Part shown: in pieces, positions 48,839 to 62,793 of the stretch
Numbering within the stretch: position 1 is the first letter of the stretch
Layout: each line of letters opens with the position of its first letter
Assembly (NCBI RefSeq): GCF_016863295.1
Contig: NZ_BOOP01000030.1
Span: forward strand, 62,001-126,000
Length of the DNA stretch: 64,000 nucleotides
Direction: 5' to 3'
Source of the DNA: Planotetraspora phitsanulokensis
GTDB lineage: Bacteria; Actinomycetota; Actinomycetes; Streptosporangiales; Streptosporangiaceae
Notes under the pieces: model-generated
Database searches by the model: none
What the model was told of the DNA's origin: nothing
The model's input: the letters and a program-made list of their open reading frames with translations, nothing else
Program-made: the position numbers and the translations under genes

Positions 48839-48960
48839 CGGGAGTCACCGGGTCGGCTGATCGGGCGGATTCGGTGTCTGGCAGCCCGCTGGTGAGTGAG
48901 CACTTTCGTCCGCTGGACCGATCGTGCCGAACTGCAACCAGAGCGCCTTTGAAGATCAGA

Positions 48961-48995
48961 AAAGCCCCTTCCCTGATCAACGGGAAAGGGGCTTT
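48961..48995 (-). terminator. Terminator next to the tRNA-Ser fragment
   Basis: Arms AAAGCCCCTT-CCC and GGGAAAGGGGCTTT, with one bulge and an 8-base loop, lie just beyond the tRNA-Ser 3' end. It would have terminated the original tRNA on the minus strand. Confidence 0.7.
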
Positions 48996-48999
48996 GATC

Positions 49000-49056
49000 T
49001 GGCGGAGGCTGGGAGATTTGAACTCCCGATGGGCGCGAACCCAAACCGCATTAGCA
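49000..49056 (-). other. attL: displaced 3' half of tRNA-Ser(GCU)
   Basis: On the minus strand this reads from the anticodon loop CTGCTAA (anticodon GCU), anticodon-stem 3' strand, long variable arm (GGGttcgcgCCC), T arm GGGAG-TTCAAAT-CTCCC, acceptor 3' strand AGCCTCC, G and CCA. The DNA beyond it cannot form the matching 5' half. It is therefore the displaced tRNA end left by site-specific integration. Confidence 0.88.
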
Positions 49057-49613: not shown

Positions 49614-49701
49614 GACGACCTCTAGCGTGCCTGGACGGCGTCGGTAACCTGCCTGGAACCCTCGCAAGGAATTGTCACACCTACCGGTCACACTTCAGCC
49701 C

Positions 49702-50904
49702 ATGGGCGTTAGATCAGACTTCTCATTGGACCTGCAGCTTGAGTACGTTCACAAGCAGGCGGCGAGCGACGAGGTGAAGCGAGCGGTCACCTCCGTGCTC
49801 CAGCACATGCGAACTGGACGCGGCGGCCACCGCAGGGGCGGGAAGACGCTCGTGCAACTCTTGACAGAGGCGCGCGGGCGCGCAGCCTCGGTCGGCGAGT
49901 GGGAGGTTGTGCGGCTGCTGCAGGACTCCCTGGATTACGCCCAGGAACGGATCTTGCAACCGGAGTTCGACGAGAGATACCGACTTTTTCAAGACGGCAT
50001 ACGCAATCAACGGCTGCGGCGGTTTGTGGCGAACACGCTTGAGATCAATTTCAAGTACGTCGCCGAGGCGGGGCGCGAGTTCCTGGACGAACACCCCGGT
50101 GCAGATGTGGATGATCTGCTGGCCCATATCAACTCGCTCAGCCATGACGCTCGGTATCTCGTAGCACCAGCAGATCGGCCAGGGCGATACTCGCTCTTCC
50201 GTGGCCGGAGGGAGACGATGGTGTGGCTGGAGCGTGTGCTCCAGGAGCGGGTCGATATCGAAGACCCGGAGGAAGCCGCTCAACGGATTGCCGCGTCACC
50301 AGAGGCATGGGCTCTCCTAGCCGCTGATTCAGATGGTCAGATGATCCTCCGGGCATCCCAACTTCAGCAGCGCTCGGCCCGCCTGGCAAGCCTGCGCAAA
50401 GTGGTGGAGGACAGGACCGCCACCGAGCTGGACCTACAACGGGCGTTGGAAGGGCAGCACTGGATCTTCGGTGGGCGTTTCGTCGGGGAAGCTGCGCAGC
50501 GCAGGTTGGTGTCGGGTGACGAGGTAGACATTCCTCTGATCCGCGGCGATGGAAGTCTTCACATCGTCGAGTTAAAGCGGGCCATGAGCATGAAGGGTTC
50601 TCTGGTGAAACGACATCGCGGAGCCTGGGTGCCTACTGCTGAGGTGCACGATGCCGTCGGCCAAGCAGTCAACTACCTCGTCGGGCTAGATGAGAACCGT
50701 CAGCAGATCTTCGAAGACTTCGGCATCGAGACACGGCGAGCAAGCGCCGTCGTTTTGATCGGCCATCCAACTGTCCAGCCGAGCGTGCCAGAGCGGGAGA
50801 TCAACGAAGCGCTTCGGACGTTCAACACTCACGTGAACCGTGTTGAGGTCATCACGTACAAGGAACTCATCGACAACGCCAGACGCTCCCTCGGGGACCT
50901 CTGA
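49702..50904 (+). CDS. sduA: Shedu-family anti-phage nuclease
   Basis: The 400-residue protein carries a C-terminal DUF4263 nuclease fold with a PD-(D/E)xK core: Asp276 (GDEVDIPL), Glu290 and Lys292 (IVELKRA). Residues about 200-260 (LASLRKVVEDRTATELDLQR, LEGQHWIFGG) match the approach to that fold in Shedu proteins. The N-terminal about 190 residues are helical and probably form the sensing part, variable among family members. Shedu is a single-gene defence system known to act as a nuclease. It is the first cargo gene of the AICE. The start is uncertain by ten codons. Confidence 0.87.
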   Translation: MGVRSDFSLDLQLEYVHKQAASDEVKRAVTSVLQHMRTGRGGHRRGGKTLVQLLTEARGRAASVGEWEVVRLLQDSLDYAQERILQPEFDERYRLFQDGIRNQRLRRFVANTLEINFKYVAEAGREFLDEHPGADVDDLLAHINSLSHDARYLVAPADRPGRYSLFRGRRETMVWLERVLQERVDIEDPEEAAQRIAASPEAWALLAADSDGQMILRASQLQQRSARLASLRKVVEDRTATELDLQRALEGQHWIFGGRFVGEAAQRRLVSGDEVDIPLIRGDGSLHIVELKRAMSMKGSLVKRHRGAWVPTAEVHDAVGQAVNYLVGLDENRQQIFEDFGIETRRASAVVLIGHPTVQPSVPEREINEALRTFNTHVNRVEVITYKELIDNARRSLGDL

Positions 50905-51547
50905 GACATAGTGGCTGCGTCGTGGCGGTATTCAGCGAGATCCCAGGCCGAGGGGCCGCCCCATGTCCTGTTCACCTGGAATGAGGCAACGGTGATCAAG
51001 CGTCCGGCTCGGTGAGCCAGGGTGAGGAACGAACCCTGGCTCTTCGATCGCCCCCGACCACGACACGACCTCGGACACCCCGTGGCGATCGTCGTGCGGC
51101 ATGACTGCGGCGGTTTGACCAGGTGCCGGCCTCTCGGATCGGTCAACGCTCGCGCTTCGGCGCGGCCCGAGCTGCTGGCGGCCGGGACCGGCCCCCAGGC
51201 CGCATGCCCGGCCGCCGAGCGGGCGCAGGGCCGCGAGGCGGCGCGGAGCGCCGCCCTTGATTCCTACTAGCCCAATTCGGCAACAGTCGAGCACTTACAC
51301 GACTTTGAAGACGACCGAAATATGCCGAACTGGGCACGTCGCCGTAAATGGGTTGTAGCAGATCACACCAGAGTGGATGCATGGCGATGCCTCCGGCGAC
51401 ACGTTCTAACAGTTGCATCTCAGCTTCTGAGCCATCGGCTTAGCTTCTGGCCAATCCGCATGCCTCTGAGTAGGATGCACGTTCTTGTCCAATACCAGGG
51501 TTGGACCACATTCTTCCATCCAAAGTGAACTTGGAGGCGAAGGAAGA
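50905..51547. other. Gene-free stretch between Shedu and the AAA gene
   Basis: No gene is supported. The DNA shifts from GC-rich to clearly AT-richer near 51280, marking the boundary of a separate cargo insertion. GGAGG with AAGGAAG before 51548 supports the AAA gene start. Confidence 0.4.
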
Positions 51548-52858
51548 ATGCAAATCACCTCGCTACGCGTTAGTCGATTCAAATCACTCTATGACGTATC
51601 GATGGAACTGGAGCCATTCAGTGTCATAACCGGTCCAAACGGTTCGGGGAAGAGTAACCTCGTAGATGCTCTGGCATTCCTGGGCGAGGTTTATCGGTTC
51701 GGCTTCGAATTTGCAGTTGGCCGCGCAGGCGGGATGGACGCCATCAGCTTCCGCGATAAGCGCCGCACGACCATTGGTGTGAAATATACAGCAAAGGCAC
51801 TGCTTAAGCTGTCCGAGATACGAAACATCGGATACGCACGAAAGAAGCTTCAGGAGGAATATGGCGAGGTGGATCTGGAACTGGAACACCACTTCGTCTT
51901 GAAGGCTGCACCATCCGCAACCGGCCTCGATTACATCGTAGAGGCCGAGAGCCTGGAACTCTCTGCGTACCTGCTCGGAGAGTGGATACTACTCCTACAT
52001 GTTAAAGCCGGGTCGGCTGGATCATCTATAGAAGTAACCGCATCTTATCTTAGTCATGAACGACAAGATGTCTCCGATGTAGCAGTAGCCGCGTTGGGGA
52101 ATATAACAAAATACCTAAACAGCATATCCGAGGACTCCGCCGGGCTCGGGCAAAGCCTTTTCGAAATCTTCCGTTTGGCGCCCGTAGTGCGCGAATATCA
52201 GATCAGAATGGGCTTGATACGAGCCTATCGATTGAGCCCTGATTCTTCACGGCAACCAGCAGTTCTCACACCAAACGCCACCTTGGACAGCCACGGCGGG
52301 AACCTCCCAGCGGTAGTTGCCCGAATCAGCAGACAACAGCCAAGCGTATGGCAAAGCATACTTGCTGGGATGCGCCAACTGCTTCCGGATCTTGTCACCA
52401 TCACCACAGAGCCAAGCGCCGAACGCGGTCTCATACTTCAATTCAATGAGACCAATCGTGGTCGCCCTTGGTCCTCTCATGAAGTATCCGATGGAACGAT
52501 TCAAGCACTGGCCCTACTAGTACTCCTACACGACTCCCGGCCTCCACTTATTTTGATAGAAGAACCAGAAAATGCTGTCCACCCTTGGGTTCTTCGTCGT
52601 TTCTTGGAGACATGCAGGTCGCTACTAAACAAGCAGATAGTCCTCACCACGCACTCTCCGATCTTGCTCAAGCTTGTACGCCCGGAAGAAGTCTTCTTGA
52701 TGTGGCGAACCCAAGGTCGTTCTAAATTGCGGCCGTTGCTAACGACCAGCCCTGAGGTTAGAGGGCTTTACTACGAGAAGGGCTTCGACGTTTTCGAGCT
52801 GTACGACAGCGGGCTAATCGCTCAGGCGATCCCTGGCGCTGATGAGGGGTCGGTGTAA
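51548..52858 (+). CDS. ABC-type AAA ATPase of a two-gene defence module
   Basis: The 436-residue ATPase has Walker A GPNGSGKS (residues 29-36), the signature region VSDGTIQALALL, Walker B LILIEEPENAVHP (EEPEN at 338-342) and the switch histidine in LTTHSPILL. It belongs with AAA_21/RloA-like ATPases. Its stop codon overlaps the start of the TOPRIM gene (TAATG), so the two are translationally coupled. Codon use is AT-richer than the element core, suggesting the pair was acquired together. A phage-sensing role is inferred. Confidence 0.9.
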   Translation: MQITSLRVSRFKSLYDVSMELEPFSVITGPNGSGKSNLVDALAFLGEVYRFGFEFAVGRAGGMDAISFRDKRRTTIGVKYTAKALLKLSEIRNIGYARKKLQEEYGEVDLELEHHFVLKAAPSATGLDYIVEAESLELSAYLLGEWILLLHVKAGSAGSSIEVTASYLSHERQDVSDVAVAALGNITKYLNSISEDSAGLGQSLFEIFRLAPVVREYQIRMGLIRAYRLSPDSSRQPAVLTPNATLDSHGGNLPAVVARISRQQPSVWQSILAGMRQLLPDLVTITTEPSAERGLILQFNETNRGRPWSSHEVSDGTIQALALLVLLHDSRPPLILIEEPENAVHPWVLRRFLETCRSLLNKQIVLTTHSPILLKLVRPEEVFLMWRTQGRSKLRPLLTTSPEVRGLYYEKGFDVFELYDSGLIAQAIPGADEGSV

Positions 52859-53505
52859 TGGTCGCAAGAAAGAAGCCGTTAAAAGTCGGTATCGTAGTTG
52901 AAGGCGAATCGGAGATCGCAGGACTACCTAAGCTATACACACAACTTGGCCAGAGGACCGGTAAGCAGTTCTTGCGGCCCCTCCGAGCCACAGCCGACCC
53001 ATGCGCCCCCATACCGGTGCTCGTACAAGCGCTCCGTGATCGAGTTCGCCTTGCGATCGCCAAAGGCGCTGACATGGTCGTTATTTTACTTGACCGTGAA
53101 CAACAGAATCACTCAGCATCCGCACGCGCGAGAGCAATCGAAAACGCCATCGCACCGAATTTTAGCGTATCGGTGAGAGTTGTCTTAAAAGATCGAACCT
53201 TCGAGAACTGGCTTATCTCATGTCCCTCTGCATTTATAAAGCAGAGATCGCGATTCCCGCATTTCGAGCGCATATCGAGAGTGGTAGAGCCGGGCAGGGC
53301 AGATAAGATCGACAAGCCTCACCGGCTACTTAACGATGCAATGAACAATCAGGCCTACGATAAAACTAAGGACGCCCCGAAGATTCTACATCATGCAAAT
53401 ATCGCGGAGATGGCTAGGAATAGCAGGAGTTTCCGCAGATTCCTTGCAGTGACTGGAGATGCCCTCTATCAGGGTGGTAGCTGCACATCTCGAGAAGTTG
53501 CCTGA
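52858..53505 (+). CDS. DUF4276/TOPRIM-like partner of the AAA ATPase
   Basis: The 215-residue protein opens with VGIVVEGESEIAGLPKLYTQL, with the TOPRIM glutamate, then MVVILLDREQQNHSA, the D-x-E-type strand, and a later conserved FENWLIS. This matches DUF4276/RloB-like TOPRIM proteins that accompany an AAA ATPase. Such pairs (AbiL-, RloAB- or PARIS-like) act in abortive infection or nuclease defence. Which of these it belongs to cannot be settled here. It is coupled to the ATPase gene by a one-base overlap. Confidence 0.78.
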   Translation: MVARKKPLKVGIVVEGESEIAGLPKLYTQLGQRTGKQFLRPLRATADPCAPIPVLVQALRDRVRLAIAKGADMVVILLDREQQNHSASARARAIENAIAPNFSVSVRVVLKDRTFENWLISCPSAFIKQRSRFPHFERISRVVEPGRADKIDKPHRLLNDAMNNQAYDKTKDAPKILHHANIAEMARNSRSFRRFLAVTGDALYQGGSCTSREVA

Positions 53506-53612
53506 GCATCTCAGTCCGATGCTTGTTCGTGCACGCTAAGCAGGCTCGAAGGAGTTCTCAAGGACTTGTCACCGACGATTCGACTATCTGTCGATGGACG
53601 TGGCATCCCAAC

Positions 53613-54473
53613 ATGATAAGAAAGCATATTGTGGAGGATCGTCGAGATCGACTGCGGGCGCTAGGTGAGCTGTTTCGGCAGTTACGCAAGGACGCCGGGC
53701 TGACAGGTAAGGAGCTTGCGCAGCGTGCAGGGGTGGCTCAGCCATCGATCTCGCGGATAGAGACTGGGCAGCTTCTTCCGACTCCGGAAACTGTTGATCG
53801 GCTTTGTGTCGCACTTGGGCTCAACGACACGGACCACGGCCGACTGGATGCGCTGCTCCTGCGCCTTCGCGACGAGGTGGCGCGCCTCAAGGATGGGCTC
53901 GCCGGACGCGAGGCGGCTGATGCTGCGCGGGTTCGCTCGGCTCAACGTGTGGTGTCGTTTCAGCCGGCGATGATCCCGGCCCTCCTCCAAACAGCCGAGT
54001 ACGCGCGGCTTGCCTTGGTGGTCGGCCGAGATGTCGACGAGGATGACGCGGCAAGTGCGGCGGCCTCGCGGGTGAGTGCTCAGGCGGTTCTGTTCGATGC
54101 CGGCCGTGAGTTCGCGTTCGTGCTAACCGAGGGTGCGGTACGGACTTGGCCGGGATCTCCATCGTTGATGCTGGCCCAGCTCGACAGGTTGGTCCAGGTG
54201 TCGACGCTGCCCCATGTCCGGCTTGGTGTGGTGCCCTGGACGGTGCCGGCTCCGGGTTTCCCGTTGCACGGATTCACGATCTATGACGGGACGACCAGCG
54301 TTGTAGAGGCGCTCACGGGCGATGTGACTCACCTCGACCCTGGCGACATCACCATGCACATGGAGACCTTCGACGCGTTCGCTGCCGCGGCCGTGTACGG
54401 CGATGAGCTGCGGGATCTCCTCGGTGAGATCGCGGCCGACTTCAGGGAGCTGGCAACTAAGCTCGACGTCTGA
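53613..54473 (+). CDS. XRE-family regulator with DUF5753-type domain
   Basis: The 286-residue protein has an XRE helix-turn-helix (about 14-70; LRKDAGLTGKELAQRAGVAQ, PSISRIETGQLLPTPET) and a C-terminal domain of the DUF5753 type (PAMIPALLQTAEYARL, FDAGREFAFVLTEGAVRT, LGVVPWTVPAP). Such regulators usually occur with a DUF397 protein; none is adjacent. Here the next gene is an RsbW-like ATPase. It is a candidate reader of the CTAGGGGG motif of this element. Confidence 0.9.
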   Translation: MIRKHIVEDRRDRLRALGELFRQLRKDAGLTGKELAQRAGVAQPSISRIETGQLLPTPETVDRLCVALGLNDTDHGRLDALLLRLRDEVARLKDGLAGREAADAARVRSAQRVVSFQPAMIPALLQTAEYARLALVVGRDVDEDDAASAAASRVSAQAVLFDAGREFAFVLTEGAVRTWPGSPSLMLAQLDRLVQVSTLPHVRLGVVPWTVPAPGFPLHGFTIYDGTTSVVEALTGDVTHLDPGDITMHMETFDAFAAAAVYGDELRDLLGEIAADFRELATKLDV

Positions 54474-54537
54474 CGCATTTATACGTGGAATAGCTTGAAC
54501 GCCTTCTAGGGTGACTCATACGCTGAGCATGTGGATG

Positions 54538-54553
54538 TATAGCCCCCTAGACA
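54538..54553. promoter_or_regulatory. CTAG-motif copy 1 (before the HATPase gene)
   Basis: TATAGCCCCCTAGACA lies 13 bases upstream of the HATPase start. It is the inverse orientation of the TGTCTAGGGGG motif at four other places in the element. Confidence 0.7.
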
Positions 54554-54565
54554 TCGGAGCTGCCC

Positions 54566-54970
54566 ATGCCGGCCTGGCGCATGTCCCGCTTCTTCCTCGG
54601 CTCCCCTGCCTCGGTGACCGAAGCCCGCCGGTTCGTTACCGGCTTCCTGCGCGACTGGCCGTGTCTGGAGGCGGCGGAACTCGTCGTGAGCGAACTAGCC
54701 ACCAACGCCGTACGGCACTCGGCAAGTGGCCGGTTCGGAGGCCGCTTCATGGTGACCATCCGGGTAGCGTCCAACGGGCTATGGCTCGGCGTCCTCGACG
54801 AGGGCGGCCCACACTCTCCGCAGCTCTCGACAGATTCCGATGATGAAGGCGGCCGGGGCCTGCTACTGGTCTCCACCCTGGCGGCGCAGTGGGGCGTGTG
54901 CGGGGACGAGCATGGCCGCACCGTCTGGGCCGTCCTGTCCACAGCGCCGGCACTGGTCACCGCGGAGTGA
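54566..54970 (+). CDS. RsbW-like HATPase (anti-sigma/serine kinase type)
   Basis: The 134-residue protein has the GHKL boxes: N box SELATNAVRHS, G1 DEGGPHSPQ, G2 GGRGLLLVSTLA. The lack of a histidine-kinase dimerisation part and the length place it with RsbW/SpoIIAB anti-sigma kinases. In actinobacteria many such stand-alone ATPases regulate an HTH partner or a sigma factor. It overlaps the next gene by four bases. Confidence 0.88.
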   Translation: MPAWRMSRFFLGSPASVTEARRFVTGFLRDWPCLEAAELVVSELATNAVRHSASGRFGGRFMVTIRVASNGLWLGVLDEGGPHSPQLSTDSDDEGGRGLLLVSTLAAQWGVCGDEHGRTVWAVLSTAPALVTAE

Positions 54971-55239
54971 CCGACTGCCTGGCCCCGCACGTGCCGGTGC
55001 CGCAGTCGGGATACGTGCGGCTGACCTGGCTTGATCCTCGGGGCGACGTCCGATGCCGAGTGGTGGCGTGGACGTGTGACTGCAAGGCTCTGATCTATGA
55101 GCTGTGTGAATTGGGCGGGCTCGGCTTCATCCGCCGCACCGTCCAGGGCGACACGATCACCGTCACCGAGACGCATCGGATGCCGATCTGGCAGGTACGA
55201 CAACTGTGGGCGGCCGTCCTCGTCGGGATGGCACGATGA
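54967..55239 (+). CDS. 90-residue protein of unknown function
   Basis: GTG-initiated product that overlaps the ATPase stop (GTGA). It reads VPQSGYVRLTWLDPRGDVRC, CDCKALIYELCELGG and MPIWQVRQLWAAVLVG. It contains four cysteines close together (RCRVVAWTCDC), which might bind a metal. It is in the same unit as the ATPase. The gene is probably conserved among similar elements but no family was recognised. Confidence 0.7.
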   Translation: MTDCLAPHVPVPQSGYVRLTWLDPRGDVRCRVVAWTCDCKALIYELCELGGLGFIRRTVQGDTITVTETHRMPIWQVRQLWAAVLVGMAR

Positions 55240-55342
55240 GTCCGCGGGGCGTGCCGAACCGCCGTTCTGCGATCCGGGCCGTGGACCCAAAAAGCGGCAA
55301 ACCCCTTAAAACCGTACCGTCAAGGGGGATGGACGGCATTTC

Positions 55343-55358
55343 GTCTAGGGGCCTAGAC
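55343..55358. promoter_or_regulatory. CTAG-motif copy 2, a perfect 7-bp-arm dyad
   Basis: GTCTAGGGGCCTAGAC has perfect GTCTAGG/CCTAGAC arms. It lies 28 bases upstream of the HTH gene start at 55386 and is the only copy that is a full palindrome. Confidence 0.72.
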
Positions 55359-55385
55359 TCGGTCGAGCACCACCAAGGAGGAAAC

Positions 55386-56228
55386 GTGCCACCGAGCGAC
55401 CTGGACCGCATTGCCGCGATCGATGACCCTTACCGGCTGCTCCGGGTCGCCACCGAACGACTCAACGCCGCACAGCAAGAAGTCACCGAACTGGCCCGGC
55501 TCCGTCGCCGCGTCATTCAAGAACTCCACGCTCAGGGCATGTCGTATGCGCAGATCGCCGAAAAGGCCGGCCTTTCCCGCGGACGTATCCATCAGATCCG
55601 CCACACCGGCCCCGCCCCGGAAGGCGCGTTCCTCGGTACCGGGATGGTCACCGTCGTCACGCCGCTGCGACACGACGCCGAAACCGGCCGTTCCATGGTC
55701 GCCTTGGACGACATGCGATCCGGCAAGCGCCTGGAAGACCTCGCTCGCAGCTTCGGCCTGAACGTCGCCACCGACAACGTCACCGTTGACGGCCGGATCG
55801 ATCTCAACCGGGACGGCCTGCTCGTCATCTGCGGCCCCCGCATGTCCGACGCCATGCGAGCGGCCTACGACATCGATCCGGTCATCCGCTGGGACCGCGA
55901 TGACAAGGGTTGGATGCTCATTGACACCCGGACACAGCAGGTGTTCCGCTCCGGCACCCAGACCGACCCCCGGCAGCCCACCGACTCGGCATTCCTCGGC
56001 CGACTCCCTCGCCCAGACGGCAACGGTTCGTTCCTCGCCATCGCCGGTATCCGCCCCAACGGCTCCCTCGGCGTCGTCCACTTCCTCACGAACGAGATCG
56101 CCACCCTGTGGGGCCAGGTCGACGACAAGCGGTTCTCCTGCGTCGTCGCCGTCGAATACGACCCTGCGACCGGGGAACCAGTGCGGGCGGAACTGGCCAG
56201 CCCGCTCTACCGGCACGAGGAGACCTGA
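55386..56228 (+). CDS. HTH protein with C-terminal ligand-sensor-like domain
   Basis: The 280-residue protein begins at GTG behind AAGGAGG. Residues about 5-65 hold a helix-turn-helix of the sigma-70 region 4/RNA-polymerase type (AQGMSYAQIAEKAGLSRGRI). The remaining about 200 residues form an alpha/beta domain (MVTVVTPLR, LLVICGPRMSD, LAIAGIRPNGSLGVVHFL) that looks like a ligand-binding or enzyme-derived sensor common in actinobacteria. The longer upstream frame crosses motif copy 2 and is not used. It is three bases from the PP2C gene, so both are one unit. Confidence 0.8.
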   Translation: MPPSDLDRIAAIDDPYRLLRVATERLNAAQQEVTELARLRRRVIQELHAQGMSYAQIAEKAGLSRGRIHQIRHTGPAPEGAFLGTGMVTVVTPLRHDAETGRSMVALDDMRSGKRLEDLARSFGLNVATDNVTVDGRIDLNRDGLLVICGPRMSDAMRAAYDIDPVIRWDRDDKGWMLIDTRTQQVFRSGTQTDPRQPTDSAFLGRLPRPDGNGSFLAIAGIRPNGSLGVVHFLTNEIATLWGQVDDKRFSCVVAVEYDPATGEPVRAELASPLYRHEET

Positions 56229-56231
56229 GCC

Positions 56232-57059
56232 GTGCGCGTCACCTTCGCGAGCGAACCCGCCTACGCGGGCCGGCCCAATGAGGACTTCATCGGCGCCACA
56301 CCGGACGCGGTCGTCCTCCTCGACGGTGCCAGCGTCCCGCCCGGGATCGAATCCGGCTGCACGCACAGCGTGCGCTGGTACTCCCACACCCTCGGCTCCA
56401 CCCTGCTCACCGAGATGACCCAAAGCGCCGGCCCTCTGCCCGAACTGCTCGCCAAGGGCATCAAGCACGTGACCTCACTTCACGACTTCACCTGCGACCT
56501 TTCTCACGGCGGATCTCCCTCGGCCACCGTCGTCATGCTCCGGCAAGCCGGCGACCAACTCGACTGGCTCGTCCTCGGCGACTCCACGCTCATCCTCGAC
56601 ACCGGTACGGCGGAACCGATGGTGGTGCGCGACGACCGGCTGGATCGGGTTGCTGCACCTCGCCGCACCCGGCTCGACGCCCTATTCGGTGGCACCCCCG
56701 AGCACGCCACAGCGCTACGCGGGTACGTGGAAGGCCTGGCCGACTACCGCAACCGCGACGGCGGATTCTGGGTTGCCGCTACTGATCCCCTCGCCGCCGA
56801 CCAGGCGCTCACCGGCTCCGTCCCCGCTGACTCTGTGTATGCCGCCGCGCTTCTCTCAGACGGAGCATCCGACGCCGTCGACCGCTACCACCTCGTCACC
56901 TGGCGGCAACTCCTGGATACCCTCGCCCAGGACGGCCCAGCCGAACTGATCCGCCAAGTCCGTGCCGCCGAGCAGTCAGACCCGCACGGCGAACGATGGC
57001 GACGGAGCAAGACCCACGACGACTCTACTGCTGTATTTTGCCGGACATACTTTCGATGA
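56232..57059 (+). CDS. PP2C-like (PPM-family) serine/threonine phosphatase
   Basis: The 275-residue protein starts with GTG and retains the PPM metal-site motifs: NEDFIG, VVLLDGAS, SDGASD and HDDSTAV. All four acidic positions are present, so activity is plausible. It has no extra sensory domain. In partner-switching systems a PPM phosphatase reverses phosphorylation by an RsbW-like kinase; the kinase-like gene lies 1.3 kb upstream in the same cassette, which fits such a pair, but no anti-anti-sigma (STAS) protein is seen. Confidence 0.82.
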   Translation: MRVTFASEPAYAGRPNEDFIGATPDAVVLLDGASVPPGIESGCTHSVRWYSHTLGSTLLTEMTQSAGPLPELLAKGIKHVTSLHDFTCDLSHGGSPSATVVMLRQAGDQLDWLVLGDSTLILDTGTAEPMVVRDDRLDRVAAPRRTRLDALFGGTPEHATALRGYVEGLADYRNRDGGFWVAATDPLAADQALTGSVPADSVYAAALLSDGASDAVDRYHLVTWRQLLDTLAQDGPAELIRQVRAAEQSDPHGERWRRSKTHDDSTAVFCRTYFR

Positions 57060-57109
57060 GAAAGCCCGGAATGATGCATCGGTTTATAGGAAATCGCTAA
57101 ACAATAAAA

Positions 57110-57135
57110 TGGCCGCCCCTCTAAAGGGGCGGCCA
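57110..57135. terminator. Terminator between the cassette and a convergent gene
   Basis: TGGCCGCCCCT and AGGGGCGGCCA form a perfect 11-bp stem with a CTAA loop, between the PP2C gene and the convergent membrane gene. Confidence 0.8.
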
Positions 57136-57151
57136 CCGGGAATTGCGTGTA

Positions 57152-57484
57152 CTAGCGTTTGGGTCGGCCGGTCTTCTTGTGCATCCCTAGCGTGGCGCCA
57201 GCAAGTGCGCCTAGTTGGCAAATGGCCACTGAAATTACCACCCAGGGTTGAAACCCGGATGCCGCTTTGAATGTCACCAGAGGCCCCGACACGATCCCCC
57301 CTATACAGGAAATATCTACGATGACTTCAAGAAGGTGCCGAGTCTGAGAGGGAGGCACGGCTACCTCCACTCTTAGATCCTCCTTCTGGAAGGTCACCGT
57401 AGAGAAGCGACGGCTTGGTTCGTCGGGTCCCTGTACATCTTCCGGAGATAGAGTTCTGTCTGCATCTCCTTGTAGTGCAGCCAT
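57152..57484 (-). CDS. Small two-helix membrane protein
   Basis: The 110-residue product (start MAALQGDADRTLSPEDVQ) has a soluble N-terminal 45 residues and two hydrophobic helices (LLEVIVDISCIGGIVSGPLV and VVISVAICQLGALAGATLG), ending MHKKTGRPKR. A longer in-frame extension is doubtful. It has weak ribosome-site support (GGAAGGAAG at about 13 bases). It is convergent with the PP2C gene. Confidence 0.52.
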   Translation of the reverse strand: MAALQGDADRTLSPEDVQGPDEPSRRFSTVTFQKEDLRVEVAVPPSQTRHLLEVIVDISCIGGIVSGPLVTFKAASGFQPWVVISVAICQLGALAGATLGMHKKTGRPKR

Positions 57485-57983
57485 AGGGCCGCTTCTTCCT
57501 TCCCCCCTTGAAGAAGCGGCCCGCATACTTTGCGGGCCTGTCATCTCAAGGGCAACCACGGGTCCGACTCCATATCGGAGTGGCCTATGCCCCACCACTC
57601 CAAGGGTCGGATTTCGGGAGCACTTCTGCTCCTTCGGGTATTGATCCCGAGGGAATTGGGATTTGTAGCCCGAGTGCCCCTTCAACATTGATTGAGCGAC
57701 GGTGGTTGACGTCGACTCGCGTGCATCAAGGCACGCGCACACCTATTAAGGCGACGGACCGATGTTCAATACCTCCACCCCTTTCTGTTGGGAACGGGGG
57801 CCAGTCGCACTGACCCGTCTCGGCAACGCCCGAGCGGCGCTGCCGCGACAAGATGCTACACGGAGCGACAGGTATCGCAACCAAATCCACACAGATTCGG
57901 TGTCTACTCGGTGGCCAACACACACGTGAGCTGGCATGATGGTCTGTCGAGGTACCCGCTGACATGAGAGGCGAGACTGAGTC
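57485..57983. other. Gene-free stretch between convergent-divergent units
   Basis: Nothing intact is supported. A hairpin-like word GCGTGCATCAAGGCACGC occurs near 57719, and the DNA is moderately AT-richer than the core. Probably promoter DNA for the RHH-like gene and the small membrane gene. Confidence 0.35.
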
Positions 57984-58226
57984 ATGGCTGATGGAGCACG
58001 TGAGAAGAAGGATCAACCAGCGGTGGAGCGCATCAATGCGGCCTTGGTCCCGGAATCAGCTCAGGCCTTGGATGAGCTTCAGCGGCGCACAGGACTGAAG
58101 AAGGTTGATCTTGTTAACCGAGCGTTGATGATCTACGAGTTCATCGATAGCGAGCTACGAAACGGAAAGCAGATCGTGTTGCGCGACAAGGAAGGCAGCG
58201 ACCAGCTGGTAAAGATCATTTTCTAG
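57984..58226 (+). CDS. Small ribbon-helix-helix-like protein
   Basis: The 80-residue protein has a short strand-like start (VERINAALVPESAQALDEL), helix RRTGLKKVDLVNRALMIYEFI and a C-terminal basic-acidic strand (VLRDKEGSDQLVKIIF). It resembles RHH-type DNA-binding or antitoxin proteins. It lies 223 bp upstream of pra, with three CTAG-motif copies in between. It may repress pra, but this is only inferred from place. Confidence 0.68.
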   Translation: MADGAREKKDQPAVERINAALVPESAQALDELQRRTGLKKVDLVNRALMIYEFIDSELRNGKQIVLRDKEGSDQLVKIIF

Positions 58227-58331
58227 AGGCTTGTCGCGTTTCCCCGTTGCCAAACCCCTGTCACTGCCGGACGCGAAGCACCCCCAATCCGATCTGCGCG
58301 TGAAGCAACCGGTCGCGATCGACGATTGGCG

Positions 58332-58431
58332 TACACCCCCCTAGACAACATCGATGGGCGTAGCTATGGTGGTGTTGCATAGCCCCCTAGACAGTTAGTA
58401 TCGCTTCAAACCGGAGTGTCTAGGGGGGTCG
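58332..58431. promoter_or_regulatory. CTAG-motif cluster before pra (copies 3-5)
   Basis: TACACCCCCCTAGACA (58332-58347), CATAGCCCCCTAGACA (58378-58393) and TGTCTAGGGGGGTCGA (58417-58432 region) lie within 100 bp before pra. The first two share one orientation and the third is inverted. This clustered arrangement suggests cooperative binding of a regulator. Confidence 0.78.
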
Positions 58432-58449
58432 ACAGGAGGGAGGAGTGAC

Positions 58450-58860
58450 ATGGCACTACAGGGACCGATTCCGGTGACCTTCGACATGGTCTTTCCGCAC
58501 GGCTGCTACGTCGTGGGGGAGGTCGAGCAGGTCAAGGACTTCGATGCCTCGACCAACGGGCGGTTCGTCCAGGCGCGAGACAAGCAGACCAGAGAGCTCG
58601 TCTGGCAGGTCGCGGTGATGGACGCGGACCCGACGCTCAAGCCGGCCCAGAAGACGGTGGCGGTGAAGATCCTGGCTCCGGTTCAGCCGGCTCCCCCGGC
58701 ACCGATGGCGGGGCTGCCGTTCACGCCGGTCGAGTTCGACGGGGTCAGCGTCACGCCCTACGTCAACCAGTCGGGGCGGTTGGCTTACTCGATCCGGGTG
58801 CGCGAGATGCGTGCTCCCCGCTCAGGCGGTTCCCGCTCGGCTGCGAAGGACGCGGCGTGA
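58450..58860 (+). CDS. pra: Pra-like activator of AICE replication, integration and excision
   Basis: The 136-residue protein begins MALQGPIPVTFDMVFPHGCY and continues VGEVEQVKDFDASTNGRFVQ, WQVAVMDADPTLKPAQK and MAGLPFTPVEFDGVSVTPY. This is the pattern of Pra-type plasmid replication, integration and excision activators of pSAM2-like elements. In pSAM2 Pra switches on the rep-xis-int operon. Here pra precedes that operon and is itself preceded by the CTAG-motif cluster, so control of pra would set element activity. The ribosome site is GGAGGGAGGAG. Confidence 0.88.
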   Translation: MALQGPIPVTFDMVFPHGCYVVGEVEQVKDFDASTNGRFVQARDKQTRELVWQVAVMDADPTLKPAQKTVAVKILAPVQPAPPAPMAGLPFTPVEFDGVSVTPYVNQSGRLAYSIRVREMRAPRSGGSRSAAKDAA

Positions 58861-59459: not shown

Positions 59460-60974
59460 ATGCAGGTGGGGCCGCTGGAACTGGCATTCCGGCGGCCCCC
59501 AGGTCTCCCGCACACAGCAATGTTCGAGAGGAGTACAAGCCTAGTGTTCAAGAAACTGCCTGGTGACGAGACACGCAGCCTCGTCTCCACCACCCCTGAC
59601 ACCGCCGTGGTGTTCCGCCCGGCCGTCGTCCACACTCCCGCGATCATCAGCCTCGTCCTCTGGCTGTGCCGTCTGGTCGCGGGTCTGGTTCGGCTGGTGT
59701 GCTGGCATCCGATCGCCGTCGCCGTTCCCGTCCTGATCTGCGTCGTCTCGGTCCGGTACGGGTACGGTCTGGCCCTGGTCGTCCTCGGCCTCGTCCTGGC
59801 GGCGGGACTGTCCTGGTTCTCGCTGGATCGGGCATCGTTCCTGCGCTGGGTGGGCTGGCGGCTGCTGGCCTTCGTCCGCTGGTTCTGGATCTACCGGCGC
59901 CACTGGCAACCCGTCGTGACGGTGTCCGGGCTTGCCCGGCATCTGCGCGGGCGTGACTACCTGCCCCGGCTGGTGCAGGTCGAATGCAACCAGTGGGCCG
60001 ACCGGGTCACCGTCCGCATGCTCGGAGGGCAGGCGGTCAAGGACTGGGCCGACCGGACCGACAACCTCGCCCATGGGTTCGGCTCCCCGTCTTGCCGGGT
60101 GGCGGTCGAACGTGCCGGGCGGCTGGTGCTGACCTTCCCTCGGCGTGACCCGCTCGCCGACCCGTTGCCGGCCGTCCCCGTCCCCGCTGCGGCGTCGGTC
60201 GGGCCGGTCGAGATCGGACAGCAGGAGGACGGCCGTCCGCTCCGGCTCAAAGTCCACGGCACGCACGTCCTGGTCGCGGGGGCGACGGGTGCAGGCAAGG
60301 GGTCGTTCCTGTGGAGCACCATCCGTGGGCTCATTCCCGCGATGCGGGCGGGCCTGGTCCAGGTGTGGGCGCTCGACCCCAAACGCATGGAACTGTCCTT
60401 CGGCCGTCCCCTGTTCGGTGAGCATTACGCGGCCGACCCCAAACAGTGCGCCGACCTACTAGACGAGGCGGTCTGCGTCATGCAGGAACGAGCCGACCGG
60501 TTCGCCGGCCTCCAACGCAACCACACCCCGACCGCTCAAGACCCGTTCGTCCTGGTGATCGTCGATGAGGTCGCGTTCCTCACCGCCTACCAGTCCGACC
60601 GGCAACTCAAGCACCAGATCAGCGCGGCACTGGCGACCCTGACCACACAAGGTCGAGCGGTCGGCGTCGGCGTCCTCGCGGCACTTCAAGACCCGCGCAA
60701 AGAGGTCATGAACATCCGCAACCTGTTCCCCGACAAGATCGCACTCCGGCTCGACGAGTCCGAACAGGTCGACATGGTCCTCGGCGACGGCGCACGCGAC
60801 CGGGGCGCACTGGCCGACCACATCTCACCCATCCCGCAGCTCGGCGCGGGCGTCGGCTACGTCCGACTCGAAACGAGCCCTGACCCGGTCAGGGTGCGGG
60901 CGGCCTACGTCTCCGACACCGACATCCGCGCCATGGTCGACGACTTCACGACGGTCACGGGGGAGAGCCGATGA
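59460..60974 (+). CDS. traB: TraB/TraSA-like FtsK-HerA DNA translocase
   Basis: The 504-residue protein has two or three membrane helices in the first about 130 residues (LVLWLCRLVAGLVRLVCW, AVAVPVLICVVS, GLALVVLGLVLAAGLSW) and an FtsK/SpoIIIE motor. Walker A is GATGAGKGS (residues 274-282), Walker B FVLVIVDEVAFL. These motors move double-stranded element DNA between mycelial compartments during AICE transfer. The start may be the GTG at 59544 behind GAGAGGAG instead of 59460. A decayed copy of its end occurs at 43831. Confidence 0.9.
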   Translation: MQVGPLELAFRRPPGLPHTAMFERSTSLVFKKLPGDETRSLVSTTPDTAVVFRPAVVHTPAIISLVLWLCRLVAGLVRLVCWHPIAVAVPVLICVVSVRYGYGLALVVLGLVLAAGLSWFSLDRASFLRWVGWRLLAFVRWFWIYRRHWQPVVTVSGLARHLRGRDYLPRLVQVECNQWADRVTVRMLGGQAVKDWADRTDNLAHGFGSPSCRVAVERAGRLVLTFPRRDPLADPLPAVPVPAAASVGPVEIGQQEDGRPLRLKVHGTHVLVAGATGAGKGSFLWSTIRGLIPAMRAGLVQVWALDPKRMELSFGRPLFGEHYAADPKQCADLLDEAVCVMQERADRFAGLQRNHTPTAQDPFVLVIVDEVAFLTAYQSDRQLKHQISAALATLTTQGRAVGVGVLAALQDPRKEVMNIRNLFPDKIALRLDESEQVDMVLGDGARDRGALADHISPIPQLGAGVGYVRLETSPDPVRVRAAYVSDTDIRAMVDDFTTVTGESR

Positions 60975-61123
60975 CGCTCACCCACTTCCTCGACGGGCTG
61001 CGCTGTGCCTGCTGCGGCGCGCTCAACATGCTCTGGCTCGACCCCGTCCGCGGCCTGGTCGAGTGCCACGAATGCGGCCAGATCGCACTCACCTTGCCTG
61101 ACACCGGAAAGGAGGACAGTTGA
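60971..61123 (+). CDS. Tiny zinc-ribbon protein
   Basis: The 50-residue product (MTLTHFLDGLRCACCGALNM, GLVECHECGQIALTLPD) has two CxxC pairs (CACC and CHEC), a four-cysteine zinc ribbon. It overlaps the traB stop (ATGA) and the rep start (TTGA), so it is a coupled middle cistron. A role as a DNA- or Rep-binding adaptor is plausible but unproven. Confidence 0.72.
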   Translation: MTLTHFLDGLRCACCGALNMLWLDPVRGLVECHECGQIALTLPDTGKEDS

Positions 61124-62793
61124 TCAACCGTGACGACTCGAACCCGGCCGGGGGAGACGCCGACGACTCCCCCGCACCGGGCCGTCGCGCCGACCGGGCA
61201 ACGCCTCGCGCGATCCGGATGGCCCAACCTCTTGCCCGCGATGTCATCGAAGTCCTGGCCGTTCAGAACGGCGTGTGCATCCGGCCCGTCCCACTGCGCA
61301 GGATCGACACCCTGACCGGCGCCAACACGGTCCTCAACGTTCCCTGCGGGACCACGATGGAAGCCAAGTGTCCCTCCTGCGCCAAGCGGAACCGGCAACT
61401 GCGGATGGCGCAATGCCGGGAGGGCTGGCATCTCGACCACGAACCCGTCAACACCCCCGACGAACCCGACGACTACCAGCGGTATCTCGTCGAACTGCGG
61501 GCCGACGCCCAAGCCTGGCGCGACCAAGCCGAAGGCGCCGGGACCGATACCGCCGACCTGGACGCGGCCATCGCCGATCTCGACGCGGAGATCAACGACG
61601 CGGGCATGCGCGGCAACGTCCTCGGCCGACCATCGCCAAAGCGGTCCCGGTCCACCCGGCGGCGACAGGACGCGCCCGACCTGCCCAAGCGGAAGATGAC
61701 GCCCAGCACGCTCGGGCGGACCTTCACCAGCTCGAACGGCAGAACCTTCCGGCCGTCGATGTTCGTCACGCTCACGCTGCCGTCCTACGGGCGCGTCAAT
61801 GCCGGTGTCCCGGTCGACCCGTCGACGTACGACTACGCGCGGGCGGCTCGCGACGCATTGCACTTCTCCAAGCTGGTCGATCGGTTCGTGCAGAACCTTC
61901 GCCGTGTGGCCGGCTTCGACGTCCAATACTTCGCGGCTGTCGAACCGCAAAAGCGGCTGGCTCCGCATCTGCACATGGCGATCCGGGGCCACATGCCGCG
62001 CGCGGAGATCCGGCAGATCGTGGCGGCCACGTATCACCAGGTGTGGTGGCCACCAACCGACGTGATCCGCTTCGAGGGTGACCGGCTGCCGGTCTGGTCG
62101 GATGAGGCCGGCTACCTCGACCCGGAAACCGGGGAAGTCCTGCCCACCTGGGACGAGGCACTCGACCAGCTCGGCCAGGACAACGACGCCGAACCGCTGC
62201 ACGTCGTCCGCTTCGGCGATCAGGTCGACGTCCAGGGCGTGCTCGCCGGTACCACCGACGCCGACACCTGCATCCAATACCTGTCCAAGTACCTCACCAA
62301 GTCCATCGGCGACGCACTCGACCCCGACAACCTGGCTCAACGGGCGCACGCCGAACGCTTCGCCAATGCGCTGCGCTTCGAACCCTGCTCACCCACCTGC
62401 CCGAACTGGCTGCGCTACGGCGTGCAGCCCAAGCAGGCGAAAGCCGGGATGGCTCCGGGTCGATGCAAGGGCAAGGCGCACAAGCCCGACCACCTCGGCT
62501 ACGCGGGGCGCCGCGTGCTCGTCTCCCGCAAGTGGTCCAACAAAACCCTCACCGAGCACAAGCACGATCGGCGTACCTGGGTCCTGGAAGCTCTCGGTCT
62601 CCCGGACGAGCCGACCGATCCCCACCGCTACACCTGGCGGCCCGTCAAACCCGGAGACCCCGACCTCGAACCCATCGGCGTGCGACTCCTGCGCGACATC
62701 GCCGAACGCCAACGCTGGCGCAACCACATGAACCAACTACAGGCGGAGGCAGACGGACAAGATTTTTCGGCAACAGAAGGGAGGGCGGCGTGA
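61120..62793 (+). CDS. repSA: RepSA-like rolling-circle replication initiator
   Basis: The 557-residue protein starts with TTG behind GGAAAGGAGG. It has the HUH metal motif LAPHLHMAIRG (His283 and His285) and candidate nucleophile tyrosines Tyr387 and Tyr391 in IQYLSKYLTKS. A zinc-site-like KCPSC appears early (residues about 84-90). This is the pSAM2 RepSA arrangement: nicking at the element origin to start rolling-circle replication after excision. It is in one unit with traB and xis. Confidence 0.9.
   Translation: MINRDDSNPAGGDADDSPAPGRRADRATPRAIRMAQPLARDVIEVLAVQNGVCIRPVPLRRIDTLTGANTVLNVPCGTTMEAKCPSCAKRNRQLRMAQCREGWHLDHEPVNTPDEPDDYQRYLVELRADAQAWRDQAEGAGTDTADLDAAIADLDAEINDAGMRGNVLGRPSPKRSRSTRRRQDAPDLPKRKMTPSTLGRTFTSSNGRTFRPSMFVTLTLPSYGRVNAGVPVDPSTYDYARAARDALHFSKLVDRFVQNLRRVAGFDVQYFAAVEPQKRLAPHLHMAIRGHMPRAEIRQIVAATYHQVWWPPTDVIRFEGDRLPVWSDEAGYLDPETGEVLPTWDEALDQLGQDNDAEPLHVVRFGDQVDVQGVLAGTTDADTCIQYLSKYLTKSIGDALDPDNLAQRAHAERFANALRFEPCSPTCPNWLRYGVQPKQAKAGMAPGRCKGKAHKPDHLGYAGRRVLVSRKWSNKTLTEHKHDRRTWVLEALGLPDEPTDPHRYTWRPVKPGDPDLEPIGVRLLRDIAERQRWRNHMNQLQAEADGQDFSATEGRAA

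Follow-up and report, generated by a model that had tools for sequence, protein, structure and literature searches.

A stretch of 64,000 nucleotides from Planotetraspora phitsanulokensis (contig NZ_BOOP01000030.1, positions 62,001 to 126,000; hereafter the window, with positions counted from its first letter) holds a short CTAG-rich sequence that recurs among the genes of a mobile element, and the question raised by this locus is which protein reads that sequence and to what effect. The element is an actinomycete integrative and conjugative element (AICE) of the pSAM2 type, as established by a RepSA-type replication initiator, an FtsK-like transfer protein, a tyrosine integrase and a tRNA attachment (att) site. 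Ahead of a gene that is presumably pra, a name based on a first-pass annotation of this DNA and on gene order and position, it carries a cassette of five genes encoding an XRE regulator, a HATPase, the product of a small open reading frame (ORF), a helix-turn-helix (HTH) regulator and a PP2C-like phosphatase. Most likely, the CTAG sequence is where a single, little-known regulator binds; this regulator would keep the transfer gene silent and, in some related elements, replace the textbook repressor. We regard it as very probable that this regulator is the element's own HTH protein, which would act as a master repressor with the CTAG dyads as its operators.

The CTAG signal

The CTAG motif is a real signal, beyond what chance would produce. 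Its exact form, the 11-mer TGTCTAGGGGG, occurs four times in the window, at 54543-54553, 58337-58347 and 58383-58393 on the minus strand and at 58417-58427 on the plus strand, and these are the only four copies in the whole 9.17 Mb genome, all within one 3.9 kb locus. The first-pass annotation had counted five copies, with the starts of the three minus-strand ones placed about 5 bases too low; the fifth, CGTCTAGGGGC at 55342, includes the 9-mer GTCTAGGGG and differs from the 11-mer at two positions, though it forms a perfect dyad, and a weaker sixth site (55319-55334) had been missed. Alignment of the sites gives as the unit a 16-bp imperfect dyad, GTCTAG-N4-CTAGAC, in which N4 is mostly GGGG. 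There are six such sites, one following the HATPase promoter (54537-54552), two within the HTH gene (55319-55334 and 55343-55358) and three over the pra promoter (58331-58346, 58377-58392 and 58418-58433), and the only perfect dyad is GTCTAG-GGGC-CTAGAC at 55343-55358.

Only the exact form and its clustering are informative, since scans with mismatches or with a relaxed dyad exceed no control. With two mismatches allowed, the window held 15 copies against 15.9 expected; with one allowed, the genome yielded 38, fewer than the 116 of the reversed control; and GTMTAGNNNNCTAKRC was found at three places in the genome, all at this locus (5 hits over the two strands, the reversed control giving 6). 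Another 12 genomes, picked for holding the HTH cassette, contain 35 exact 11-mers, 32 of them no more than about 5 kb from an HTH gene; the reversed control pattern gave 27 hits. The rarity of CTAG, previously taken as the mark of a regulon, is borne out in the chromosomal part of the window, with 27 occurrences where 48.8 are expected, whereas inside the element CTAG is not rare (23 against an expected 24.7).

Operators at the pra and HATPase promoters

Three copies had been assigned to the region before pra, and all three are dyads lying over its proposed promoter. The right arm of operator 1, GTACACCCCCCTAGAC (58331..58346), provides the -35 element TAGACA (58342-58347); the -10 element TATGGT (58365..58370, plus strand) follows at 17 bp, operator 2, GCATAGCCCCCTAGAC (58377..58392), sits at the predicted +1, and operator 3, GTCTAGGGGGGTCGAC (58418..58433), lies just ahead of the ribosome-binding site. 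This arrangement recurs in related loci, which were collected as described below and carry numbers with the prefix L. Both kinds of site were found after the HTH gene in 50 loci, and once six were dropped for lack of a complete pair (L130, L137, L140, L154, L167 and L190), 44 complete triads were left, 43 of which have TANNNT downstream of the operator 1 TAGACN, at 17 bp (18 loci) or 18 bp (25 loci) and at no other spacing from 10 to 25. The layout is that of a repressor, because the operators overlap the -35, the predicted start point and the leader of a normally spaced promoter, where bound protein would block transcription.

The copy assigned to the region before the HATPase gene was likewise recovered, as the operator GTATAGCCCCCTAGAC (54537..54552), upstream of the start codon at 54566. 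The proposed promoter of the HATPase operon (54495..54524, plus strand) consists of a -35 TTGAAC (54495-54500) and a -10 TACGCT (54519-54524) separated by 18 bp, and the operator lies just 3' of the predicted transcription start, a position in which bound protein would again block expression. A TTGANN-TANNNT pair precedes the HATPase gene in 62 of 63 loci, the exception being L133, with a spacer of 18 bp in 54 and of 17 bp in 8.

Operators within the HTH gene

A further copy was earlier described as lying before the HTH/PP2C pair, a description that has to be abandoned because both sites found there are inside the HTH gene, the likely start of which is the ATG at 55236. The perfect operator GTCTAGGGGCCTAGAC (55343..55358) encodes S-R-G-L-D in frame, and the weaker operator GTCAAGGGGGATGGAC (55319..55334), 24 bp from it, is kept in seven cassette loci and is found only in the cassette group closest to the window. 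A start of the HTH gene could be assigned in 57 of 63 loci, and in 56 of these its codon runs into the stop of the gene before it (NTGA). Third positions vary most over the first 20 HTH codons, and of the 64 loci with a dyad, 63 agree modulo three in the distance from dyad to HTH domain, L168 being the exception (the count of in-frame dyads omits L156 and L168).

The codons were also read from the peptide SRxL without use of the dyad, which was feasible in 62 of 65 loci, the remaining three lacking the peptide. The leucine is CTA in all 62 (background 2.3% of leucine codons in the HTH and PP2C genes), the arginine is AGG or AGA in all 62 (background 3.1%), and the serine is TCT in 58 and TCC in 4 (TCT background 3.8%); the middle codon of the dyad varies among Val, Gly, Ala, Asp and Pro. 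Since the codons are fixed at SRxL, the DNA itself is conserved beyond the needs of the peptide. An operator about 100 bp into the HTH gene may act as a roadblock, by looping or in simple autoregulation.

Related elements

Scanning with the Pra protein yielded 154 confirmed relatives, and the top 80 (79 distinct loci), mostly from Nonomuraea, Microbispora and other Streptosporangiaceae, were retained; the closest named relative is that of Planotetraspora silvatica (L011), 96% identical. The 9-mer GTCTAGGGG stands before pra in seven of the 79 loci, and the same seven carry the entire XRE-HATPase-ORF-HTH-PP2C cassette. The other 72 have neither cassette nor motif, save for one distant GGTCTAGGGG, 9.9 kb off, in each of L034, L041 and L058. 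When the cassette loci are aligned, the operators are fixed and the bases between and around them drift, and in L042 and L072 paired changes restore the symmetry of the HATPase site, e.g. GTATAG..CTATAC. Three further pra loci, L060, L078 and L080, hold an XRE relative of 43-44% identity, with no HTH match and no motif.

A point absent from the first-pass annotation is that the cassette occupies the position in which most related elements carry a GntR regulator of the KorSA type. A KorSA-like GntR protein with a UTRA domain (Pfam) is encoded in 71 of the 79 pra loci, that is, in 71 of the 72 without the cassette, and is lacking in the seven cassette loci and in L081 (Fisher 2.8e-9 for the exclusion, computed on loci that are not independent). 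In L081 an upstream reading frame resembles, by eye only, a diverged GntR. The GntR query found no match in the seven cassette loci or in the 65 close HTH loci described below, and its best match in the window (E 0.16) falls outside the element. On a pra tree of 80 rows, with L081 labelled GntR, regulator type needs at least five changes, three of them forced by well-supported branches. A direct comparison is offered by two elements of Microtetraspora fusca NBRC 13915 that differ in regulator type, L055 and L072: their pra genes are 96.9% identical in DNA and the 2.1 kb downstream of pra 90.9% identical, whereas the 200 bp upstream are 39% identical, i.e. unrelated. Comparison at the sequence level thus shows the regulator cassette to be mutually exclusive with GntR and to have been exchanged repeatedly, as a block.

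A second collection was obtained through the HTH protein, with matches in 150 of 297 genomes of the order (E up to 0.001). From the long matches 80 HTH loci were fetched, 65 at 59% identity or more and 15 at 34-40%; at least six of the seven Pra-derived cassette loci are also among the 65. In these 65 the dyad in the HTH gene is kept in all except L156, and the HATPase site in 63 of the 64 with a HATPase gene (not in L131). The 40 with a pra match show three dyads before pra in 35 cases, two in 4 and none above threshold in 1 (L149). Counted from the HTH gene, the stretch between -2 and +5 kb holds 314 dyads, against 14 in about 468,500 bp elsewhere. Seven loci from outside the order were added, four at 63-67% identity (L210-L213) and three at 44-53%, and in the former four, fetched after the site rule was set, every site class is present. 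These four also have an extra CTAG site before the rep start, at 85, 64 and 67 bp in L210, L212 and L213 (by script) and at 57 bp in L211 (by eye).

The gene following the cassette does not always match pra. In 12 loci without a pra match, the next gene is a small one of other sequence type (114-134 aa) in seven, a longer frame, by a crude choice of start, in four, and none in one. Six loci (L124, L125, L128, L141, L142 and L202) have in the place of pra, after the operator triad, a gene of about 119-134 aa (MRxIPVDxS...), possibly a distant Pra.

The motif is therefore neither common elsewhere in the genome, where all four exact copies fall at this locus, nor absent from the same genes in related elements, findings which support the earlier proposal that one regulator couples the signalling cassette to pra.

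The DNA-binding protein

Three candidate binders had been proposed, the XRE, the HTH and a small ribbon-helix-helix (RHH)-like protein, among which our comparison favors the HTH protein, disfavors XRE and makes RHH unlikely as a common binder. The HTH protein is the likely binder because the dyads survive without XRE, because another palindrome, and not the dyad, follows the XRE type, and because the recognition helix is shared: [ST]RGRIH is present in 65 of 65 close relatives and in 0 of the 15 low-identity ones. An XRE match is found in 63 of the 65 loci. L167 has no DUF5753 gene on its contig C29 (41 in that genome) and no such palindrome, and its dyads are kept.

The palindrome in question, ACGCATTTATACGT (54473..54486), lies upstream of the HATPase -35, is the sole copy in the genome with up to one mismatch and is proposed as the XRE site. 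An ATTTAT-centred palindrome is present in all 32 loci with a near XRE type (at least 66% identical to that of the window), 21 of which have the form ACGYATTTATRCGT, and in none of the 31 with a far XRE type (31-43% identity). In the far type, TTCA-N6-12-TTGAAT occurs in 24 of 31 loci, compared with 0 of 32 near-XRE loci, and the palindrome runs into the -35. In the loci of the other order (L210-L213) the palindrome is GAGGAATAATTCCTC, which is as in L150 with one changed base pair. Three kinds of palindrome are thus seen in the same HATPase promoter region, tracking XRE type (window, L124-L203, L210-L213). The CTAG dyad, unlike the palindrome, is identical across all XRE types. XRE is a likely regulator of the HATPase operon, most simply an activator; a precedent for an XRE activator is WhiJ9 of Streptomyces venezuelae, belonging to a family of loci that also hold HATPase (abaA) genes (PMC10294661).

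The 15 low-identity HTH loci have no XRE match (0 of 15), usually keep PP2C (12 of 15) and rarely HATPase (2 of 15, L181 and L187) or Pra (1 of 15, L176). Repeats upstream of the HTH gene are significant in nine of them (p up to 0.03), control stretches inside the HTH gene scoring 0-2 in 13 of 15, and dyads of similar layout with other arms are visible by eye. The other sequence of these upstream repeats and dyads (L174-L188) hints at a possible helix-to-operator code; in L183 and L186, with a KGR[IV] helix, the arms are of TAG type (by eye, post hoc).

Several observations weigh against the HTH protein as repressor through the dyads, or against the force of the counts. The loci are related, so that counts overstate their independence. 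L156 has an HTH gene without any dyad, with a different upstream part and no XRE or HATPase match, and L149 has pra with no dyad above threshold, only degenerate ones by eye. Of the 25 HTH loci without a pra match, downstream dyads are present in 15 and lacking in 10. Outside the order, L215 (53% identity) has two dyads above threshold near the HTH gene and L216 one, neither showing the HATPase or pra class, and L214 has no dyad and neither class. Among the low-identity loci, repeats were not significant in 6 of 15, and the control stretch scored 9 in L181, equal to its upstream score of 9, and 6 in L178; the same repeat test was not significant in four cassette loci tried. In the far XRE type the palindrome reaches the -35, and XRE could also repress. 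The two XRE types resemble each other fairly closely in the recognition helix (VAQPSISR against VPQPTVSR, from an alignment of 17 loci in which L135, L159 and L200 gave no usable HTH region), so the argument from exchange rests on the palindromes and on L167. Finally, AlphaFold models the HTH protein poorly, with a mean predicted local distance difference test (pLDDT) score of 43.9.

The nearest alternative on the protein side, that the XRE/DUF5753 protein binds the CTAG dyads with the HTH protein as accessory partner, draws on the near-constant presence of XRE, on the similarity of its helix in both types and on the ability of XRE proteins such as WhiJ9 to bind DNA (PMC10294661). We consider it improbable, given the dyads of L167, the palindrome as the sequence that tracks XRE type, the single motif locus in a genome with 8 DUF5753 genes and the repeats that low-identity HTH loci possess without an XRE match. 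An equally small chance is given to the HTH protein binding the dyads as an activator of pra or as a sigma-like factor. Annotation mostly places its plasmid relatives (35-42% identity) in the sigma-70 family, and its Pfam and NCBIfam matches correspond to sigma region 4; these matches span a short HTH stretch only, the NCBIfam one is under its cut-off, and a test for the sigma-70 core, regions 2 and 4 together, found only the short region-4-like stretch. The operators cover the pra promoter from its -35 through the predicted start point into the leader, and at the HATPase operon the operator is 3' of the predicted start, all of them positions where a repressor would act. One such sigma-70-annotated relative, on a plasmid of Streptomyces sp. 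NBC_01102 (L218 4935-7766), lies ahead of a UTRA protein and an ATP-binding protein.

That a protein of the host reads the motif, host and element sharing one cell, is less likely still: motif and cassette stand jointly before pra in 7 of the 79 pra loci and are both missing there in the other 72, the exact motif is confined to one locus of the genome, and it accompanies the cassette in different genera and in a second order. Least credible is a motif without regulatory role, be it replication iterons, a repeat or an accident of codons. The sites within the HTH gene do fall in coding sequence; against this, the rare Leu and Arg codons of SRxL are invariant, the middle codon of the dyad changes amino acid freely, and three sites sit on a promoter. 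The RHH-like protein was rejected as common binder for lack of relatives in related loci, tblastn finding none in the other loci of either collection (79 + 80).

Proposed mechanism

We hypothesize that a dimer of the HTH protein recognizes sites like GTCTAG-GGGG-CTAGAC, with half-sites one helical turn apart. At pra, operator 1 would place it on the -35, operator 2 on the start point and operator 3 on the leader; with Pra off, replication, excision and transfer would be kept off; this role of pra as the switch of excision and transfer is assumed by analogy with pSAM2. The HTH protein would also repress its own operon. The operator 3' of the HATPase start point would serve here, probably together with one or two of those in the HTH coding sequence. 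Control of this operon is probably shared by the separate XRE protein, most likely an activator, from the palindrome next to the -35. To judge from their place beside the HTH gene, the HATPase and PP2C may act on its product; they would probably set repressor activity, in which case a host signal could release pra.

Other genes of the element

The AICE is about 15.9 kb long and the end of the window falls within it. Scanning one flank only for direct repeats revealed no useful att site, and comparison of both flanks revealed a 57-bp exact direct repeat, the left copy of which is attL (48945..49001) and the right copy of which lies beside tRNA-Ser(gct) (contig C30:126754-126810).

The genes from that of the XRE regulator to that of the RepSA initiator are all on the plus strand. 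The XRE regulator with DUF5753 (53523..54473, start codon not settled; DUF5753 E 7.8e-33, HTH_31 E 2.2e-17) has a WhiJ-like context and is followed by the HATPase_c_2 protein, RsbW/AbaA-like (54566..54970, E 6.6e-14), and by the small ORF (54967..55239), which overlaps the HATPase stop (GTGA), is not assigned to a family and has tblastn relatives mainly in the cassette group closest to the window. The HTH regulator of 330 aa (55236..56228), with a Pfam Sigma70_r4-like HTH, overlaps the preceding stop (ATGA) and is paired with the PP2C-like phosphatase (56232..57059), the match of which is weak and below the Pfam cut-off (PP2C_2 E 0.00044). Four regular expressions for the metal-binding aspartate motifs of PP2C matched 65, 62, 59 and 41 of 65 relatives; a fifth, for the last aspartate motif, matched none as written. 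Between the PP2C gene and pra lies the gene of the RHH-like protein (57984..58226; weak RHH_3 match, E 0.18), which, judging from the loci compared, is outside the conserved system and peculiar to the element of the window.

The pra-like gene (58450..58860), the proposed target of the switch, sits before the FtsK/SpoIIIE-type transfer gene (59460..60974) and the gene of the RepSA-family initiator (61120..62793; PF20199, E 2.2e-104). Its product gave no Pfam, NCBIfam or PHROGs match, and its structure model has a pLDDT of 80.3. A phage search returned 0 matches, viral contigs gave one weak match of 32 residues, and the PDB held no close sequence relative. The element also carries a Shedu defence protein, SduA (49672-50904, PADLOC E 5.9e-186), and an AAA_21 ATPase (51485-52858) with a DUF4276 protein (52858-53505), which match the candidate defence system HEC-01.

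Comparison with known systems

The literature searched, partly at the level of abstracts, gave no account of the CTAG motif or of the cassette. AICEs of Frankia are described with Pra, XRE and GntR/KorSA regulators, the word phosphatase being absent from the text available (PMC3218068), and in the available portion of PMC9513070 KorSA, GntR, XRE and phosphatase are all unmentioned.

Phage-type three-operator switches have their model in lambda OR, and at pra three spaced operators likewise lie over one promoter region, with the difference that one promoter and one repressor are seen and no Cro-like competitor was identified. Partner-switching modules of the RsbW/RsbU type combine a HATPase with a PP2C phosphatase, as does the cassette; unlike them, the cassette proteins scanned include neither a STAS antagonist nor a true sigma factor (the STAS result covering ten window proteins), and a DNA-binding protein stands in that place. 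WhiJ itself carries DUF5753, and as in the WhiJ-BldB-AbaA loci of Streptomyces, a gene for an XRE protein with DUF5753 adjoins a HATPase gene. In the cassette, unlike those loci, an HTH-PP2C pair and a pra switch accompany these two genes, and a BldB/DUF397 gene was not seen, although no dedicated search was made, the small ORF (scanned as 54889-55239) giving no Pfam or NCBIfam match. WhiJ9 activates a neighboring gene from upstream repeats (PMC10294661); these are direct repeats, unlike the palindrome of the cassette.

A wider generalization, which we offer tentatively and hold to be possible rather than probable, is that HTH-PP2C pairs are repressors, forming a family that is undescribed yet widespread in actinobacteria and that has a readable helix-to-operator code. 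One branch of it would, in some AICEs, have repeatedly replaced KorSA, put an operator into its own coding sequence and recruited a module of the WhiJ/AbaA type, whereby excision and transfer would follow the developmental state of the host. The pra switch proposed here gives a candidate role to proteins now mostly annotated as sigma factors, and its operators form a short list of directly testable sites.

The closest parallel is KorSA, whose control of pra is the worked-out case for AICEs. In pSAM2 this GntR protein represses pra and itself and, via pra, rep-xis-int, binding at both its own promoter and that of pra, and its homologue SCO3932, of the GntR/HutC family, has two binding sites before a pra homologue (PMC8584621). 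Like KorSA, the cassette has repressor-type sites in the pra promoter and in the transcription unit of the regulator, a likeness read from sequence only. Unlike KorSA, its HTH protein belongs to an unrelated family, its site differs from the AC[TC]T[AG]TT[GC][TG][GT]ACG of SCO3932, and no GntR gene was found in the cassette loci. The cassette system thus looks as if it works like KorSA control without being a member of it, the same target apparently standing here under an unrelated regulator, and the exchange of the two as blocks constitutes a natural experiment on the rewiring of a switch.

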